Of a stretch of DNA of 48,004 bases, positions 38,314-46,330 are shown piece by piece. This stretch comes from Longimicrobiales bacterium (GTDB lineage Bacteria > Gemmatimonadota > Gemmatimonadetes > Longimicrobiales > Gaopeijiaceae), in contig JANQDZ010000075.1 in NCBI GenBank assembly GCA_028278645.1, positions 1 through 48,004 of the forward strand. The letters run 5' to 3'. A program made the translations under genes and the position numbers. Position 1 is the first letter of the stretch. The number at the start of each line of letters is the position of its first letter. Below the pieces are notes generated by a model. It had not been told where the DNA came from and did no database searches. It saw only the letters and a program-made list of their open reading frames with translations.

Positions 38314-40656
38314 ATGGCGGAGACCACCGCCGACCTCGGCGATCAGAGTGCAGTGAAACCACCCTACCTGTGGGCTCTGGCAGCTACCGGTATGGTTGCC
38401 CTCCTCTACATCGTCACACTGGCTCCCACCACGGCATTCTGGGATACCAGCGAGTACATCGCCACAGCCCACCTGTTGGGGATTCCTCATCCCCCAGGCA
38501 ACCCGCTCTTCGTCGTTCTGGCACGGGCCTGGGACATCCTCCTGGCTCCCCTGGGTCTTTCGGTAGCGGTGAAGATCAACCTGTTCTCCACCACCATGAG
38601 CGCCCTGGCCCACGGGTTCTGGTTCCTGGTCATCCACCACGTCCTCCGGTACTTCACGGACGATCGGCGCTTCCAGTTGGCGGGAGCTTTTGTCGCCGTT
38701 GTGGTCAGCGCCACCGCCTTCACCGTCTGGAACCAGTCGAACGTCAACGAGAAGGTCTACACCGTATCGCTCTTCACCATCGCCCTTCTCACATGGCTGG
38801 CCTTCCACTGGAGGGAAAACCTCGGGAAGGGGAAGGATGACAACCTTCTCATCCTCATGGTGTTCATCCTGGCCCTGTCGGTGGGAAACCATCTGATGGC
38901 GTTTTTGGCGGCGCCCGCCCTGGGGATCTTCATCCTGCTGGTTCACCCAAAAACGCTGCTGAACTGGAAGCTCTACCTCGCCGCGGTGATAGCCACATTC
39001 CTGGGGTTGTCCATCCACCTTTATCTGCCCCTCAGGGCTGCCCTGGATCCGGTGATCAACGAGGCGTCACCCACGTGTGAATCCCTCACGGGGGCCCTTG
39101 TTAGCCTGCTCACCTTCGGCTTGGAGCAGAAGGTCGCTGGCCTCAACGGATGTGAGAACCTGTCCGACGCACTGAGCCGAAAACAGTACGTGAAGCCTCC
39201 CCTGGTCCCCCGGCTGGCCCCGCTCCACCTTCAGATCACGAACTACATCCAGTATTTCGACTGGCAGTGGGCCAGAGCCCTTCAGGGAACCCAGGTCCTG
39301 TTTTCCTTCGCCCGCCTTCCGTTCACGCTTCTCTTCACCGGCCTGGGCGTCTACGGGGCGCTGGAACACTTCCGAAAGGACCGTTTCAGCTGGTGGTACA
39401 TCCTGACGCTGTTCGGAACCCTCTCTTTGGCGTTGATCTTCTACCTGAACTTCAAGTACGGGTATTCCATTCAGGACCCTCTGGGTGACCTCTCAGCACA
39501 CGAGGTGAGGGAGCGGGACTACTTCTTCATCGTCAGCTTTTCGCTCTGGGGGCTTTGGGCCGGGGTCGGCATCGTGGCTCTCTGGCGACGCTTGGGTAAG
39601 GGAGTCGCCGATGGGATGCGAAAGGCTCGTCCCGTTCTCCTGATCGCGGCCATACCCCTGGTGTTGAACTGGCCGTGGGCCAGCCGTACCGGGGATTATT
39701 CTGCCAGAGACTGGGCCTACAACCTCCTCATGAGCGTCGAGCCTTACGGCGTGCTTTTCACGAACGGAGACAATGACACCTTCCCCCTGTGGTACCTACA
39801 GGAGGTGGAGGGAATCCGGCAGGACGTGACGGTCATCGTCACATCGTATCTGAACATCGACTGGTACGCTTTCCAGCTGAGGGGGCTCACCAGCCCGTGT
39901 CAGGAAGGCGTGGATCCTGCGGACGATCCCACCAGGATCATCTGCCAGAGACCCTATTCTCCCGAGGGCTCTCCAGGAGCCGAGTACGTAGGGCCCCAGG
40001 GAGCTGACGCGGTCCAGACAGCCGGAAAGGTGCCGTTGGTCATGGAGGGACCGGTTCGGATCCCGACCCGATCCATCCTCCAGCTGGACGACGTCACCAT
40101 TCAACAGACGTCCCAAACCCTCTTGCCCGTGATGGAAGATCAGACCGTCCAACTGGGACCTGGCCTGGCGGCCCGTATCCCCGGAGGCTCGTACGTCGAG
40201 CCATGGCAACGGTTCGCTCTCGCCATCATTAGCGCTTCTCTCGGTGACCGGCCGGTGTACTTCGCGTCGAGTGGGAACGCCGCGAGCTATCTGGGCCTCA
40301 CGCCGTACCTCATTCGGCAGGGGCTGGCTTATAAGCTCCATGACACCCTGCCCGATGCGACCAGCATGGAGAACGTCACGGAGCTTCCGCTCACCGCCTT
40401 CAGCGGCGTGACAGGAACCTACGTGGACCACCACCGGACGGACCTGCTCTCGACCGAGGTGTTCATGCACCGAAGCGGCCTTCCCGACGAGTGGCCCCGG
40501 TGGCCGTGGAGAGCCGTCATGGGGATCCCGAGTTATTACGCGTGGGTGCACTACGCGCTCTACGAGTGGGCGCTGTTGGAGGGTAATCAGGAAAAGGCCG
40601 ACTTCGAGCTCGATAGAGCTGAAGAGTGGGGGCGGCTGAGATTACCTGACTCTTAG
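38314..40656 (+). CDS. DUF2723 polytopic membrane protein (possible glycosyltransferase)
   Basis: A 780-residue protein with about ten or more membrane helices in the first 450 residues and a C-terminal extracytoplasmic domain. The N-terminal FWDTSEYIATAHLLGIPHPPGNPLF is the hallmark of DUF2723: an acidic loop after helix 1 as in GT-C glycosyltransferases of the protein-O-mannosyltransferase type. The C-terminal domain has VLFTNGDNDTFPLWYLQEVE. A role in transferring sugars to proteins or lipids outside the membrane is inferred. It starts three bases after HyuA and overlaps the convergent SbcDC-like gene by 15 bases. Confidence 0.85.
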   Translation: MAETTADLGDQSAVKPPYLWALAATGMVALLYIVTLAPTTAFWDTSEYIATAHLLGIPHPPGNPLFVVLARAWDILLAPLGLSVAVKINLFSTTMSALAHGFWFLVIHHVLRYFTDDRRFQLAGAFVAVVVSATAFTVWNQSNVNEKVYTVSLFTIALLTWLAFHWRENLGKGKDDNLLILMVFILALSVGNHLMAFLAAPALGIFILLVHPKTLLNWKLYLAAVIATFLGLSIHLYLPLRAALDPVINEASPTCESLTGALVSLLTFGLEQKVAGLNGCENLSDALSRKQYVKPPLVPRLAPLHLQITNYIQYFDWQWARALQGTQVLFSFARLPFTLLFTGLGVYGALEHFRKDRFSWWYILTLFGTLSLALIFYLNFKYGYSIQDPLGDLSAHEVRERDYFFIVSFSLWGLWAGVGIVALWRRLGKGVADGMRKARPVLLIAAIPLVLNWPWASRTGDYSARDWAYNLLMSVEPYGVLFTNGDNDTFPLWYLQEVEGIRQDVTVIVTSYLNIDWYAFQLRGLTSPCQEGVDPADDPTRIICQRPYSPEGSPGAEYVGPQGADAVQTAGKVPLVMEGPVRIPTRSILQLDDVTIQQTSQTLLPVMEDQTVQLGPGLAARIPGGSYVEPWQRFALAIISASLGDRPVYFASSGNAASYLGLTPYLIRQGLAYKLHDTLPDATSMENVTELPLTAFSGVTGTYVDHHRTDLLSTEVFMHRSGLPDEWPRWPWRAVMGIPSYYAWVHYALYEWALLEGNQEKADFELDRAEEWGRLRLPDS

Positions 40657-43428
40657 GAGTCCCACACCGGCCGGAAGGGATTTCAGGAAGGCCCGACCTT
40701 TCTCCGGGTGCCCGCGGAAGTCGTAGAGACCGTCGAAGAACTCCGGGGCCCGTTCAACCACGGGCCCCCTGGTCAGGAGAAGAACCTGCGGGATCCGGGA
40801 AAGCACCCTTCGCAACAAGCTCAGGGCCCGGAGCTGATCCTCCCCACCCATCCGGTCAAAGGGGTCTCCCAAGACAAAAGACCCGATGGGGTTCCAGTCC
40901 TCCGCCAGGAGCTCCACCAGCGCCATCCGTAGCGCGACCACGGCCGCGGCCCGATCCTCGTCGGCCTCTACCCCCGCCGAACCACCCCCGTCCACCAAAC
41001 CCACCGATCGGTCCTCGTTCTCCCCACCCAGCCCGAGTATCCGTCCACCCGTGAGGCGGTTCAGTCGCCGGCCGGCCCGGTTCAGAAGGCGGGTTCGGCA
41101 CTCCGACCCGATCTCTCCTCGGAGGTTCCGAGCCAGGTCGAACAAGTGCCGGGCCAGGGGCGGGGTTTCCGGGATCTCCGCCGGATCGTCTTTGAACGCC
41201 GCCAGCTCCTCTTCCGTCGCCCCCGACGCGTTCGCTTCCTGAAGGAGGAGCTCCAACCGGTCCTGGACCTCCCTCTCACGATCCCTCAGCTCGTCCAGCT
41301 CCCTGAGAGAAGACCGGGCCCGTTCCAGACGTTCGGCGCAATCTTCGAACTGGGCATTGAAGAGATGGGACTGGCCCTCCAGGTCGATAAGACTTTGAGG
41401 TTTCTCTTCGAGCTGTTCCCATCGTCGGCGCCACCACTGGCCGTCCTGGACCAGAGCCTCCCACTCGTCTCGGAGCTCTTCCAACACCTCCTGAAAGTGT
41501 TCCGCCAGGTGCCGCCCGCAGGTCGGACACGGGCTGTCTGGCCCCAGCTCTTCGAGCTTCCTGATCCGATCCCGAAGCTCTCGCCCCCGATCTCGGTAGG
41601 CTTGAAGGTGGGTTTCCGCATCTTGACGCTCCCGATGCCACTCCATGGTTTCGGCACCCAGGTCGCCTCCGGTCTCGGCGATGTCGGCTCGGAGGTTCAT
41701 CAGCTCGGCCTCGAGGTCCGAAACCAGAGTCGGCACGTCTTCCAGCGCCCGTAGTTGAGCTTTTAAGTCGGCCAGCTCCGACTCCAGCATCAGGCGCCCG
41801 TAGTCCCTGGCCGACAGGTCACCCAGGTCCCGATCCCGCTTCAACCCTGGATACCGCTCCGAGAGGGATTCCAGGAGATCCGTCAGCTCTTCCACTCCCC
41901 GTGCCGCAGCGAGGAGGGTTTCCCCTCCGTCCAGGACGGACTCCGGAGAGTCCCCGCCGATACCACACCAAGCCAACGCCATGCCCTTGGCTGGCAGCCC
42001 CCATTGCTGCGAGGAGTCTGCCCGGCCATGCACCCGGGCGTCCCGCTCGGCCAGGCCACTCCTTCGCCAGAAGCTCGCTTCCCTGATTCCTCCGAGGCGA
42101 AGGGCGATGGCGGCTTTGTCCTCTTCGTCACCTTCGGCGCCGCCGGGAAGGTCGGGAGTGATCCCCACCCCCCACAGGAGAGTGTTGGCGAACGCCTGGA
42201 GAGTCCTGCCGTCCCCACCCATCCATGCCAGGAGCCCCTCTTTAGCCTCCATGCTGACCTCACCCAGGAAGGGAAGCTCCGACCCGTGGAACTCCTGGAT
42301 AAGGAGTTCCTCCTCCAATCCACCGGGATCCGTGGAATGGGTGGACTCTTTGGTGAACTCTTCCAGCGTGGCCCCCAAGCCCTGCACTTCCACCCCCATC
42401 TCCTTCACCCGGTCTCGAAGAACTCTGAGCGCGAAGCCACGGTCCCTGGTGACGAGGGGAAGCGGGTTGTTGTCGGCGAGGTTCTGGAAATCATCCACCT
42501 CGATGGCCAGATGCAGGGCCTGGTCCCGCAGCTCAGCGAAGAGCCCCTTGTCTTCTCTCTTCACCTCCTCCGGAGACAATCCCTCGATGCGCAAGCGAAC
42601 GATCTTACCGTCAATTCCTCCGGGCACCTCCCCCAGGACCTCTCGGACTTTCCCGGGCAGCTTCTCCGATTCCCCCTGTGGGACCCGGATCGGAGCCAGG
42701 GCCACTACAGCCCGCCCGGGGATGGGGTGGAATCGGGATGTGCCCGACTCCAGATCGAAGGAAAGAAACCCCTTCTCCTGGGCTGCCTCTCGCCACGGCT
42801 CCGGGCCCACCCGCTCCAAGGAGCCGGGATAGAACACCCTCGGCGCCACCTGCTGGTGTTGGTGGAGATAGCCCAGGGCCACGTAATCCCACGGCTGGGG
42901 ATCCAGCGATAAGCCCGGCCCCGCACCGGTGGCCACCCCGGCGTAAGCCAGTAGGAGATTCCACTTCGCCTCAGGATGGGTCCGAAGCTCGGGGTAGGGT
43001 CGCCGCACCACCGCACTGTGTGGTACGAGGAAGAGGTGGGTTTGGAGGTCCCGGAGGAACACGGACCGGGCTCGGCCCGTCACCGCCTCCACGTTCGGAA
43101 AGGGATCCAGAGCCGCCAACGCCCCCGGATCGGTCATGGGCCTGGGGGTATCCCGAGCTCCTGCGACCATGAAGATCTGCGTCGACGGTATGGCACTTCG
43201 GAGGGTTTCCAGGCCCTGAGCCAAAGCCACCAAGGCGCCGGGAGACGGATCGGGCCGATCAAAAATGTCACCCACCAAGAGAACCAGGTCCGGCCTCAGC
43301 TGGACGACCTCATGAACCGCCCTCTGGAAGGCCTCCGATACGTCCCTCTCCCGAACGTTCTTCCCACGCTCCGCCCTCTCATAGGCCCGATGGCCGAGGT
43401 GCAGATCGGAGAAGTGGACGAGAAGCAT
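40642..43428 (-). CDS. SbcD-SbcC-like single-chain fusion with degenerate active sites
   Basis: The start at 43428 (MLLVHFSDLHLGHR) follows a GAGGGG and lies four bases after the previous gene's stop. Residues 1-350 match Mre11/SbcD/YhaO phosphoesterases: SDLHLG (Asp8, His10) and VGDIFD (Asp54) are intact, but GNHD is GARD (90-93), the next His is Tyr162 and GHxH is GYLH (186-189). Residues 375-470 align with the N-terminal lobe of YhaN/SbcC ATPases, yet the P-loop is MGGDGRTL (403-410) without the usual Lys position. Long coiled coils (515-740) flank a zinc hook CPTCGRH (Cys634, Cys637). The C-terminal lobe has VEADEDRAAAVVALRMAL (820-837) in place of the LSGGE signature and FVLGDPFD (851-858) in place of Walker B. 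Looks like an intact but catalytically reduced Mre11-Rad50-type protein. Confidence 0.82.
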   Translation of the reverse strand: MLLVHFSDLHLGHRAYERAERGKNVRERDVSEAFQRAVHEVVQLRPDLVLLVGDIFDRPDPSPGALVALAQGLETLRSAIPSTQIFMVAGARDTPRPMTDPGALAALDPFPNVEAVTGRARSVFLRDLQTHLFLVPHSAVVRRPYPELRTHPEAKWNLLLAYAGVATGAGPGLSLDPQPWDYVALGYLHQHQQVAPRVFYPGSLERVGPEPWREAAQEKGFLSFDLESGTSRFHPIPGRAVVALAPIRVPQGESEKLPGKVREVLGEVPGGIDGKIVRLRIEGLSPEEVKREDKGLFAELRDQALHLAIEVDDFQNLADNNPLPLVTRDRGFALRVLRDRVKEMGVEVQGLGATLEEFTKESTHSTDPGGLEEELLIQEFHGSELPFLGEVSMEAKEGLLAWMGGDGRTLQAFANTLLWGVGITPDLPGGAEGDEEDKAAIALRLGGIREASFWRRSGLAERDARVHGRADSSQQWGLPAKGMALAWCGIGGDSPESVLDGGETLLAAARGVEELTDLLESLSERYPGLKRDRDLGDLSARDYGRLMLESELADLKAQLRALEDVPTLVSDLEAELMNLRADIAETGGDLGAETMEWHRERQDAETHLQAYRDRGRELRDRIRKLEELGPDSPCPTCGRHLAEHFQEVLEELRDEWEALVQDGQWWRRRWEQLEEKPQSLIDLEGQSHLFNAQFEDCAERLERARSSLRELDELRDREREVQDRLELLLQEANASGATEEELAAFKDDPAEIPETPPLARHLFDLARNLRGEIGSECRTRLLNRAGRRLNRLTGGRILGLGGENEDRSVGLVDGGGSAGVEADEDRAAAVVALRMALVELLAEDWNPIGSFVLGDPFDRMGGEDQLRALSLLRRVLSRIPQVLLLTRGPVVERAPEFFDGLYDFRGHPEKGRAFLKSLPAGVGLLRVR

Positions 43429-43432
43429 GGGC

Positions 43433-44791
43433 TCACGCCCCTCCCCTCGGAACGAGAGAATACCCCCCAAAAGTGGAAGGCCAGGCCGGAGTCTCGTCCG
43501 CAGAGAGGAGGATCAGGAACCGGGAGCTCTCGCTCACACCCTGGAGAAGCTCCGTATCGGTTTCCCCCCGGCCCTTTCGAAAAACGGACACACCCGCGAA
43601 CCACTCTCTCGCCTGGATCGCGAGATGCTCCACGGCATCCCGGGTTCCGACCTCTGGGTCCCCTCCATTATACCCGAGTCCTCCAAGGATCAGCACCGCC
43701 CCCGGCGCCAGCGTCTCCTTCAAGGCCCGCCACTCCATGTCCCCGAGGGCCGGCATTCCAGCCAGAGCCGGGAGAACTCCGCAGTCGACCACGACGACGG
43801 AGAATCCCTCGGGATCTTCCCGGACCGCTTCCAGAGGAGGTCTGATTTGAAGGTCGAGCTGGTCCCAGCCATCCCACTGATGGAAGTGGGTTCGGGCCAG
43901 AGTAATCAGCTCCTCTCTCCTCTCCACCACCCTGATCCCGGCGTGGGGGAACCGCTGAGAGAAGAGCCGGGCCAACGTCCCGCTCCCTCCCCCCAGATAA
44001 AGGATCGACTCCGGTTGGATCCCAACCCGAGCCAGCCCCTCCAAGAGGGCCGCCTCCCACGCTCTCCCAGCCTCCCCCCCAGATCCTTCGGCACCCCGAA
44101 CGATGTCCCCGGCAAATAGGAGATTCATCTCCGTTCTGGGGCTCCCCACCATCCGCCTCTCCACCCGAAGAGTCACGCCTCCGGCCACCACGGTGCCGAG
44201 GGGATCCACCGTCACGCGGGCGTCCAAGACCCAACCCTGCAGAAGAGCCCCTCCCGAGAGGATCACCAAACAAAAGAGGTACAGGGTGTGGGGCGCGCCG
44301 TTGGGCAGGAGCACCGTTCCCGCCATGAGGAATCCCAAGGCTGCCCCCAAAACGGCCGTAGGACCCACCGACGTCGATGGGACCCGGCCAAGATCATCCG
44401 GACGGCCCATCGCACCCAAGAGAGTCCCCAGCGAGAAGAGAGGCAGGGCGCCAAGAAACCCCAGGCCGATCCCCTGGCCCAGGGCAGTCCCTTGGAGGTT
44501 CTCGGAGAAGTTCAGGGTGGCCCCAAAGGCCGACGCCAATGCGAAGGTCACAAGGGAGAACATCCACCGCCGCCGGATCTGTTCCACTGCCCCGCCCCCC
44601 ACCGGGAGTGGAGCGCTCATCAACCCCAAGCCGAGAGCTCCGACTTCGATGGTCAAGATCAGAGTCAGTGCCGGAAGCAGGCCCTCATCGGTATATAGGA
44701 GGAGCCCCGTGGAAACCTCCAGCGCCACAGCCGCCGCCAAACCTGCCAGGAGTGGAGGCACAGCCACAAGCCAGCGGCGGGAGCCGTTCAT
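43433..44791 (-). CDS. Membrane-anchored spermidine-synthase/methyltransferase-like protein
   Basis: The 452-residue protein has six or seven hydrophobic helices in residues 1-200, then a Rossmann-type domain: ILYLGGGSGTLARLFSQRF near 265, VVERREELITLAR, VVVVDCGVLPALAG and APGAVLILGGLGYNGG. This is the SAM- or decarboxy-SAM-binding fold of polyamine synthases and methyltransferases; the catalytic GGExG/Asp pattern of true spermidine synthases is not clear. It is a shorter cousin of the protein at 13697-16324. The ATG overlaps the flavin reductase stop (ATGA) and its own stop lies four bases before the SbcDC-like gene. Confidence 0.75.
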   Translation of the reverse strand: MNGSRRWLVAVPPLLAGLAAAVALEVSTGLLLYTDEGLLPALTLILTIEVGALGLGLMSAPLPVGGGAVEQIRRRWMFSLVTFALASAFGATLNFSENLQGTALGQGIGLGFLGALPLFSLGTLLGAMGRPDDLGRVPSTSVGPTAVLGAALGFLMAGTVLLPNGAPHTLYLFCLVILSGGALLQGWVLDARVTVDPLGTVVAGGVTLRVERRMVGSPRTEMNLLFAGDIVRGAEGSGGEAGRAWEAALLEGLARVGIQPESILYLGGGSGTLARLFSQRFPHAGIRVVERREELITLARTHFHQWDGWDQLDLQIRPPLEAVREDPEGFSVVVVDCGVLPALAGMPALGDMEWRALKETLAPGAVLILGGLGYNGGDPEVGTRDAVEHLAIQAREWFAGVSVFRKGRGETDTELLQGVSESSRFLILLSADETPAWPSTFGGYSLVPRGGA

Positions 44792-45264
44792 GAACCGATC
44801 CCGGACAGGTTCCCGCGGAAAAAGATCAGAGGATCCCCGTCCCTGGCTTCACAAGTCTCGACCTCTCCCACCACAATGGAGTGATCTCCCCCGGGATGAA
44901 CGTCCACGATCTTGCACTCCATCCAACCCAGAGCGCCTTCCAGGAGGGGACTGCCCAGAGAACCATCCTTTACCTGCAACCCCGGGAACCGGTCGTGGGG
45001 ATCCGCCTGGGAGAAGGTGAGAGCCAGGTCCTCTTGAGGTTCCGCCAGAAAGCTCACCCCGAAGTGCCCTGCCTGGAGTATGGAATCGTGGCCGTCAGCA
45101 TTCTTGTGTAAGCAGACCAGAACCAAGGGTGGATCCAACGAAACGGAGGTGAAGGCATTCACCGTCAATCCGACGGGGTCGCCGTCGGGAGCTCGGGAGG
45201 CCACCACTGTCACCCCTGTGGCAAAATGGCCCATAACCCACCGGAATTTTTCTTCGCTGACCAT
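44788..45264 (-). CDS. Flavin reductase-like FMN-binding protein
   Basis: A 158-residue protein with the flavin-reductase split-barrel pattern: MGHFATGVTVVASRAPDGDPVGLTVNAF as the core motif region, then SLDPPLVLVCLHKNADGHDSI, FGVSFLAEPQEDLALTFS, LGWMECKIVDVHPGGDHSIVVGEVE and the last PLIFFRGNLSGI. Members supply reduced FMN or FAD to partner monooxygenases. No two-component monooxygenase is next to it. AGGAG lies before the ATG. It is the first gene of the three-gene operon that ends with the SbcDC-like fusion. Confidence 0.9.
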   Translation of the reverse strand: MVSEEKFRWVMGHFATGVTVVASRAPDGDPVGLTVNAFTSVSLDPPLVLVCLHKNADGHDSILQAGHFGVSFLAEPQEDLALTFSQADPHDRFPGLQVKDGSLGSPLLEGALGWMECKIVDVHPGGDHSIVVGEVETCEARDGDPLIFFRGNLSGIGS

Positions 45265-45313: not shown

Positions 45314-46330
45314 ATGAAAAGGAGACTACCCCGCTGGTTTGGAATGGTTGGGATTGTAACCGCCGCTTTTGGCTGCGACAACGTGTCATTCGGCGGGATG
45401 AGCGTTAGCCTGGAGGGCCCACCCAGGGACAGCCTGAGTGCCGAAGGTGGGGTGGCGGGAGCCGGGCTCGATACCGGCCCAATGCGGTTTCGATATGGCC
45501 CCCTGCTTTATGCCGGGACTCGGCAGGGCGACTCCGTCACGGTTGTCCCGGTGGCCGAGCTAACGGACGGCGGCCTCGAGCCCCTCCCGGGAGGGGACGC
45601 AGGGTCCCGGCTGGCGGAGCAAATCCTGGAAGAGCGGTTGATGCCGGGCCAGAGGCTAACCTTGTTCCAGCAGGGGGGTCGGGTCGGGACACTCACCGTG
45701 TCTGCGTCCCAAGGGACCACGTCCGAGTACTGCTCCCCCAGGGCCCAAGCCGTCGGGTCCATCGAGCTGATCCCCAGCGCGGCCGCGTCGGACCGCTTCC
45801 TGGCCCTGGAGGAGGAATTAGGCCAGGAGCATCCCTATGGGGGTTTTCAGACCTTCTTAGTGGAGCGCCCGCATCGCACCGCGATTCAGAATCTCGGAGG
45901 GGAAGCCCTGAACGAGGTGGGCGGGCAGTGGCCCAACGTCGGACTCCAGAACATCCGGTTCGATTTGCAGGCATTTCAGCACTCATCGGCCGATCCGCCA
46001 TCCATCATCGGCACCTTCCTGTTCCAGGACCAGCTGGGCGTAGGCCCTGCACCAGATCCTTCCTACTCCTTATTGGTTCTGGGTGAGCCTCAAGGAAACC
46101 GGTTTAACCGGACGTACACCTGGTACCGCCGGGTGGGAGACGGAGGAAAAGGCGCACCCCGATACTTTTCCAAGATGGACTGGGACGGGGACGGGGAGGA
46201 GGAGCTCCTTCTCGAGATCTTCGGAGCCGAATCAAGATGGTGGGCGGCTCTCGAAAGAGCGGGTAGAAGCTGGGTCCTGGCTTTTCAGGATCCTTGCGGG
46301 GAACCGGGCGACGGCCCCGGCCCTTCCTGA
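45314..46330 (+). CDS. Predicted lipoprotein, function unknown
   Basis: A 338-residue protein with a signal of the lipoprotein type: basic MKRRLPRWF, a hydrophobic stretch and AFGC (Cys21). The mature protein is beta-rich with Gly/Pro loops. Near the C-terminus DWDGDGEEELLLEIFG looks like a calcium-binding FG-GAP/VCBS-type loop (D-x-D-G-D-G-x-x-E). No family is recognised for the rest. It has no visible Shine-Dalgarno and lies only 49 bases from the divergent flavin reductase. Its 3' end overlaps rsgA tail-to-tail by 46 bases. Confidence 0.75.
   Translation: MKRRLPRWFGMVGIVTAAFGCDNVSFGGMSVSLEGPPRDSLSAEGGVAGAGLDTGPMRFRYGPLLYAGTRQGDSVTVVPVAELTDGGLEPLPGGDAGSRLAEQILEERLMPGQRLTLFQQGGRVGTLTVSASQGTTSEYCSPRAQAVGSIELIPSAAASDRFLALEEELGQEHPYGGFQTFLVERPHRTAIQNLGGEALNEVGGQWPNVGLQNIRFDLQAFQHSSADPPSIIGTFLFQDQLGVGPAPDPSYSLLVLGEPQGNRFNRTYTWYRRVGDGGKGAPRYFSKMDWDGDGEEELLLEIFGAESRWWAALERAGRSWVLAFQDPCGEPGDGPGPS

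Follow-up and report, generated by a model that had tools for sequence, protein, structure and literature searches.

A probable Mre11–Rad50-derived pseudoenzyme with a conserved zinc hook in a family of Gemmatimonadota

The SbcCD complex (PDB 6s85, 7yzo) is a two-subunit, ATP-dependent endo/exonuclease that combines an Mre11 nuclease and capping fold with a Rad50 head. Inactive relatives of the nuclease fold are known: Vps29 and the B-subunits of eukaryotic DNA polymerases are calcineurin-like phosphoesterase scaffolds that have lost their metal ligands and kept the fold; unlike the protein described here, they are not known to be linked to a Rad50-type hook protein. The Rad50 zinc hook itself dimerises constitutively, and an SMC hinge can take its place (PMC6969161). 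RloC, a tRNase with an ABC ATPase and a zinc hook (PMC2610378), resembles the present protein as a bacterial zinc-hook protein outside canonical Mre11–Rad50 and differs from it in being catalytically active. In the Lamassu systems LmuB generally carries a Walker B Glu-to-Gln change and may have weak ATPase activity or none, and its putative ATP binding was needed wherever tested (PMC10586767). A literature search covering few subscription journals found no precedent for an inactive or fused Mre11–Rad50 or SbcCD, which is weak evidence of novelty.

The protein analysed here is encoded in a 48,004-nucleotide stretch of DNA (the window; contig JANQDZ010000075.1 of assembly GCA_028278645.1) from a Longimicrobiales bacterium, whose genome is a Gemmatimonadota MAG, 95.5% complete. 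Its frame, recognised in an earlier sequence-only reading that left the strand unstated, lies on the minus strand and is intact, running over 928 codons from an ATG at position 43428 to a TAA at 40642–40644. The motifs named in that reading are all present: D8, H10, D54, G90-A-R-D93, Y162, G186-Y-L-H189, M403-GGDGRTL and C634-P-T-C637. In the 928-residue protein Pfam places Metallophos above its cut-off and the Rad50 zinc hook below threshold, and the SbcD/Mre11 and Rad50 models of NCBIfam both match below their own cut-offs, the curated SbcD model TIGR00619 scoring 45.1 bits against a cut-off of 77.65. The matches to SbcD/Mre11 cover residues 1 to approximately 235, and those to the Rad50/SMC coiled coil with its zinc hook cover residues 512–750, approximately.

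AlphaFold2 models built from alignments of relatives had a mean pLDDT of 83.7 for the whole chain and 84.9 for the Rad50 half (residues 331–928). Residues 1–315 of the model superimpose on MjMre11 (4tug) with a Z-score of 27.5 over 286 residues, many Mre11/SbcD chains align at Z > 20 with both the nuclease and the capping fold, and alignments to Mre11–Rad50 complexes extend to residue 365. Residues 375–919 match the two-lobed, coiled-coil ABC head of Rad50 (3qkt; Z-score 22.6, 301 residues), so the structural comparison upholds both domain assignments of the sequence-only reading. Compared with SbcCD, the nuclease and cap fold (Z ~24) and the head fold (Z ~19.8) are recovered in one chain that lacks Walker A, the signature and the metal-2 site. 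Both folds are thus predicted to be complete, whereas the active sites are not.

Table 1 Features of the pseudo-Mre11/pseudo-Rad50 locus, in window coordinates
Feature	Position	Strand	Basis or conservation
Whole gene, pseudo-Mre11/pseudo-Rad50 single chain	40642..43428	minus	928 aa + TAA stop
Mre11-like nuclease-fold domain, residues 1–245	42694..43428	minus	sequence and structure match
D8-L-H10, retained presumed metal-1 ligands	43399..43407	minus	D8 in 70/71, H10 in 69/71 relatives
D54, presumed bridging metal ligand, retained	43267..43269	minus	68/71 relatives
GARD (residues 90–93), former GNHD; presumed metal-2 Asn and catalytic His gone	43150..43161	minus	His to Arg in 68/71
GYLH (residues 186–189), former GHxH	42862..42873	minus	presumed metal-2 His in 5/71; metal-1 His189 in 67/71
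Mre11 capping domain, residues 246–314	42487..42693	minus	model and structure match
Helices 332–361, at the place of the Rad50-binding helix-loop-helix of Mre11	42346..42435	minus	model and structure match
Rad50-head N-lobe remnant, residues 381–540	41809..42288	minus	model and structure match
Former P-loop position, WMGGDGRTL (402–410), without the Walker A Lys	42199..42225	minus	GxxxxGK[ST] in 0/71
Shortened antiparallel coiled coil, zinc hook at its apex, residues 541–756	41161..41808	minus	models
CPTC zinc hook, residues 634–637	41518..41529	minus	CxxC in 71/71 relatives
Rad50-head C-lobe, residues 757–928; signature, Walker B Asp and H-loop gone	40645..41160	minus	alignment and structure match
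Upstream neighbour, membrane protein with weak methyltransferase-like C terminus	43433..44791	minus	conserved neighbour
Flavin reductase-like protein	44788..45264	minus	conserved neighbour
Uncharacterised protein, no Pfam match	45314..46330	plus	conserved neighbour
TMEM260-like (DUF2723) membrane protein, convergent	38314..40656	plus	conserved neighbour

In calcineurin-like phosphoesterases metal 1 is bound by the counterparts of D8 and H10 together with the bridging Asp and the final His, and metal 2 by the Asn of GNHD, the His in the middle and the leading His of GHxH. Set against this seven-ligand, two-metal arrangement of Mre11/SbcD, 71 aligned sequences of the family retain the metal-1 set (67–70 of 71, depending on the residue) and have largely lost metal 2. 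Neither the Asn nor the catalytic His of GNHD occurs in any of the 71; the His is replaced by Arg in 68 and otherwise by Ser or Cys. The equivalent of His165, which is Tyr162 here, is still His in 35 of them. The ligand losses described from the sequence are therefore shared by relatives, with two refinements: the four of seven ligands reported as kept make up the whole metal-1 set, and the loss at Tyr162 is not family-wide. Close to the pocket, residue 57 (43258–43260) has changed almost throughout as well, the canonical His after GDxF (GDVFH) being Asp in 63 of 71 members (GDVFDRP). With one set kept and the other largely lost, the Mre11 core would hold one metal, in a metal-1 geometry presumed from conservation and from the wider phosphoesterase family.

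The ATPase motifs have been lost too. The Walker A pattern GxxxxGK[ST] is found in 0 of 71 family sequences, the SGG signature in 2, a Walker B-like pattern in 1 and the TH of the H-loop in 0, compared with 15 of 15 canonical orthologues for each. Hooks were located in 68 family sequences, 50 of which read CPTC. Canonical proteins have about 404 residues between the beginning of the Rad50 part and the hook, whereas the family has about 180–255, so that its coil arms are much shorter. No intact P-loop or set of metal ligands was found elsewhere in the chain, and structure-based alignments place both Rad50 lobes and the Mre11 core as expected.

The family survey covered 96 genomes in 40 genera of the window's GTDB family. 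Matches at E ≤ 0.001 occurred in 84 genomes; once six weak matches of genus g12 were excluded (best E-values of about 1e-5 to 1e-3; those examined were SbcD), the protein was present in 78 of 96 genomes and 31 of 40 genera, at E ≤ 6e-33, leaving nine genera without it. Recurrence on this scale goes far past anything expected by chance. Some genera encode a single chain of approximately 700–935 residues, and others two adjacent, often overlapping genes for approximately 350–390 and 440–490 residues. Mapping the fused or split state onto a tree of the Mre11 domain requires at least 4–5 changes, so fusion (or fission) appears to have occurred more than once, an easy step because the ends of the split genes overlap or abut. 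The single chain emphasised by the sequence-only reading is thus real here and secondary in the family, having arisen several times, and split versions with identical catalytic losses are common. One assembly (G009; L071, L072) contains two copies of the pseudo-gene, one of them cut at a contig end, which may be strain variants or a duplication. In another (G245, contig C19; L202:1-1978), from a genus that normally carries the gene, the DUF2723 and membrane-protein genes lie adjacent, only ~130 bases apart, as a clean loss.

Between the window's protein and that of its congener G029 (91% identity), dN/dS was 0.034 along the whole gene; the Mre11 part gave 0.013, the hook 0.026, and the linker and N-lobe the highest value, 0.069. 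All values are approximate, as dS is near saturation. Mean pairwise column identity in the family is 0.56 for the Mre11 nuclease, 0.22 for the N-lobe, 0.61 for the hook and 0.33 for the C-lobe, compared with 0.64, 0.45 and 0.64 for the N-lobe, hook and C-lobe of canonical Rad50, and the hook flank (residues 597–690) is the best conserved part. Constraint has therefore been inverted, moving from the ATPase lobes to the hook. Purifying selection maintains the gene and acts most strongly on the Mre11 fold and the zinc hook. The shared losses, the low dN/dS and the lack of any alternative intact P-loop or metal site in the chain agree with the structural pseudoenzyme under selection that had been proposed from the sequence.

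The conserved pocket also fits another kind of enzyme, in which the metal-1 site, Arg92 now standing where the catalytic His was, would act as a single-metal phosphoesterase or would bind DNA ends without ATP. The near-invariance of the metal-1 ligands (67–70 of 71) and of the His-to-Arg change (68 of 71) implies that the pocket is under selection, the Mre11-domain dN/dS of only 0.013 points the same way, and the retained site could still support some chemistry. However, none of the 71 sequences has the metal-2 Asn, and 66 lack the first His of GHxH. Mre11 and most calcineurin-like phosphoesterases catalyse with two metals, and we regard such an enzyme as unlikely; a further argument against it is that the strong constraint extends to the hook, for which an isolated enzyme would have no use.

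The origin of the family is indicated by its relatives in the phylum. A search with the family profile gave matches in 248 of 297 Gemmatimonadota genomes, and in each of the other GTDB families examined (f2, f3, f4, f5, f6 and f9) the match was always a two-gene pair encoding canonical Mre11–Rad50. The canonical Mre11 has approximately 390 residues with GNHD and GHYH, and the canonical Rad50 approximately 810 residues with GPNGAGKS/T, a CPTC hook, ISGGEED, LDE and ITH. These pairs (L158, L163, L165, L171 and others) resemble the window's gene in domain order, in gene position among order-mates and in a recognisable hook motif (W-x-R-[ED]-RQDAE ... CPTC ... VQDG-x-W ... QL), and the GARDTPR of the window aligns with canonical GNHDTPR; they differ in being two genes, in having all metal ligands and ATPase motifs, and in their longer coil arms. 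Families f2 and f3, of the same order, share the window's gene order and directions: hypothetical protein, flavin reductase, membrane protein, Mre11–Rad50 and DUF2723 (L174, L175, L181). The membrane protein at 43433–44791, whose C-terminal half is weakly methyltransferase-like, thus also precedes the canonical genes there. In f4 and f5, and upstream of SbcCD in g12, genes resembling HerA-type ATPases by eye stand upstream of the complex (L163, L165, L170, L100); this assignment, plausible by sequence in f4/f5, was not confirmed by Pfam.

When SbcD and YhaO-like proteins are included in the tree, the family groups with the canonical Gemmatimonadota copies in a single clade (support 99/99). Within it the family forms, on a long branch, the sister group of the canonical copies as a whole and does not fall inside its order, a placement that may reflect long-branch attraction; support for monophyly of the family is modest (SH-aLRT 80; 74/5 in a careful tree). 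A canonical-Rad50 profile recovered a full-length copy in only one of the 96 family genomes (G037), the matches elsewhere being mainly the hook of the pseudo-protein (columns about 318–500) or weak SMC/SbcC. The copy in G037 (G037:C160:3835-6219; L184) accompanies a pseudo-copy on contig C87 and could represent horizontal gain, retention or contamination. Because the neighbourhood is shared with f2 and f3, the joint clade is well supported and full-length canonical Rad50 was found in 1 of 96 family genomes, the canonical complex appears to have been turned into, or replaced by, an inactive one in the same chromosomal place.

The neighbourhood also bears on the idea of a scaffold for a process other than repair, such as cell-envelope metabolism, tied to the membrane protein and flavin reductase encoded in the same direction. 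Their genes nearly touch that of the pseudo-Mre11/pseudo-Rad50 protein and are conserved beside it in many genera. The same neighbours, however, flank canonical Mre11–Rad50 in other families, so that the context predates the change and points to no new partner, and we consider this role improbable.

Within the window's genome, searches for canonical Mre11–Rad50, SbcCD and YhaNO found none, with no SbcD above cut-off and no Rad50, SbcC or YhaN; the best AAA_23 match is an SMC of 1200 residues (L087), the remaining matches being to shorter proteins or scoring far lower. In the congener G029, searches with SbcD and Rad50 profiles likewise found no SbcCD, YhaNO or canonical Mre11–Rad50. The 928-residue protein is the only Mre11–Rad50-type machine seen in this 95.5%-complete genome, and the suggestion that it modulates a true SbcCD does not fit here for that reason. 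A lone Mre11-like phosphoesterase of 379 residues (L088:4411-5550, G000:C59), with intact GNHE, HH and GHIH, lies between ABC-permease-like and surface-protein-like genes and has no Rad50 or YhaN gene beside it. Two PD-(D/E)XK domains of the AddB/RecB type are encoded elsewhere in the genome. Other genera of the family have SbcCD or YhaO–YhaN alongside the protein. The YhaO–YhaN-like pairs of the same GTDB family (L095, L096, L097, L099) resemble it in joining an Mre11-like phosphoesterase gene to one for a coiled-coil ABC ATPase, and differ in their intact motifs, separate clade and other chromosomal place. Compared by eye across genera, loss of the gene follows no clear rule with respect to SbcCD: g12 and g9 have SbcD without the gene, and the two occur together in g26, g23, g27 and others.

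A role in anti-phage or anti-plasmid defence, as a sensor or clamp comparable to Lamassu LmuB, is very unlikely. PADLOC gave weak matches to LmuB (best E 4e-8), whose Walker B is generally impaired (PMC10586767). Those matches are nevertheless confined to the coiled coil (residues 512–752); neither a match to the Lamassu head, by PADLOC on the protein, nor LmuA or LmuC, among the window's neighbours, was found, and Walker A is absent here. No effector or defence genes adjoin the locus, a chromosomal one that keeps its synteny across genera and occurs in most family genomes, and the new defence factor once suggested for this gene thus gains no positive support. That the gene is decaying and being lost, as the disappearance of all catalytic motifs, its absence from 9 of 40 genera and the clean gap in at least one genome (G245) from a genus that carries it might suggest, is ruled out for practical purposes by intact frames in dozens of genera, a dN/dS of ~0.03 and a hook and Mre11 fold conserved above the rest.

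The protein is very probably a selected pseudoenzyme derived from Mre11–Rad50. The reading we prefer, with a probability of roughly 0.6, is that it is the in-place descendant of the phylum's Mre11–Rad50 operon, now catalytically dead, ATP-independent, structural and here fused, and serving as a zinc-hook DNA clamp or tether; the clamping or tethering function, taken by itself, is slightly favoured. The catalytic features of active SbcCD that were tested all fail, and the working mode would be that of the structural half of Mre11–Rad50. In such a complex the Mre11-like domain would dimerise, held together by one structural metal, and the Rad50-like heads would no longer be engaged by ATP. The zinc hook would join two chains, or two dimers, through the shortened coiled coil, a step in keeping with the Rad50 hook as a constitutive dimerisation module (PMC6969161). 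The complex would hold DNA constitutively as a short clamp, bridge or tether and would not cut it. Fusion would then fix the 1:1 stoichiometry of a complex become purely architectural, with end processing left to other nucleases, for example the AddB/RecB-type PD-(D/E)XK proteins. That the entire family has exchanged its Mre11–Rad50 nuclease, in place, for an ATP-independent zinc-hook clamp that does not cut DNA, is built on a one-metal Mre11 core and has more than once become a single chain, we hold to be an even bet.

How far the function of Mre11–Rad50 lies in tethering and how far in cutting is a long-standing question, approached mainly through engineered mutants. Across dozens of genera, evolution appears to have removed both catalytic activities, sharpened the constraint on the hook and kept the Mre11 fold. 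If true, this would be a documented case of a core repair nuclease becoming a pseudoenzyme in its own place, and would offer a small, single-chain, apparently uncatalytic system for direct tests of DNA clamping by the hook and the Mre11 dimer. It would amount to a natural separation-of-function experiment, in which the architectural role is selectable without nuclease or ATPase.
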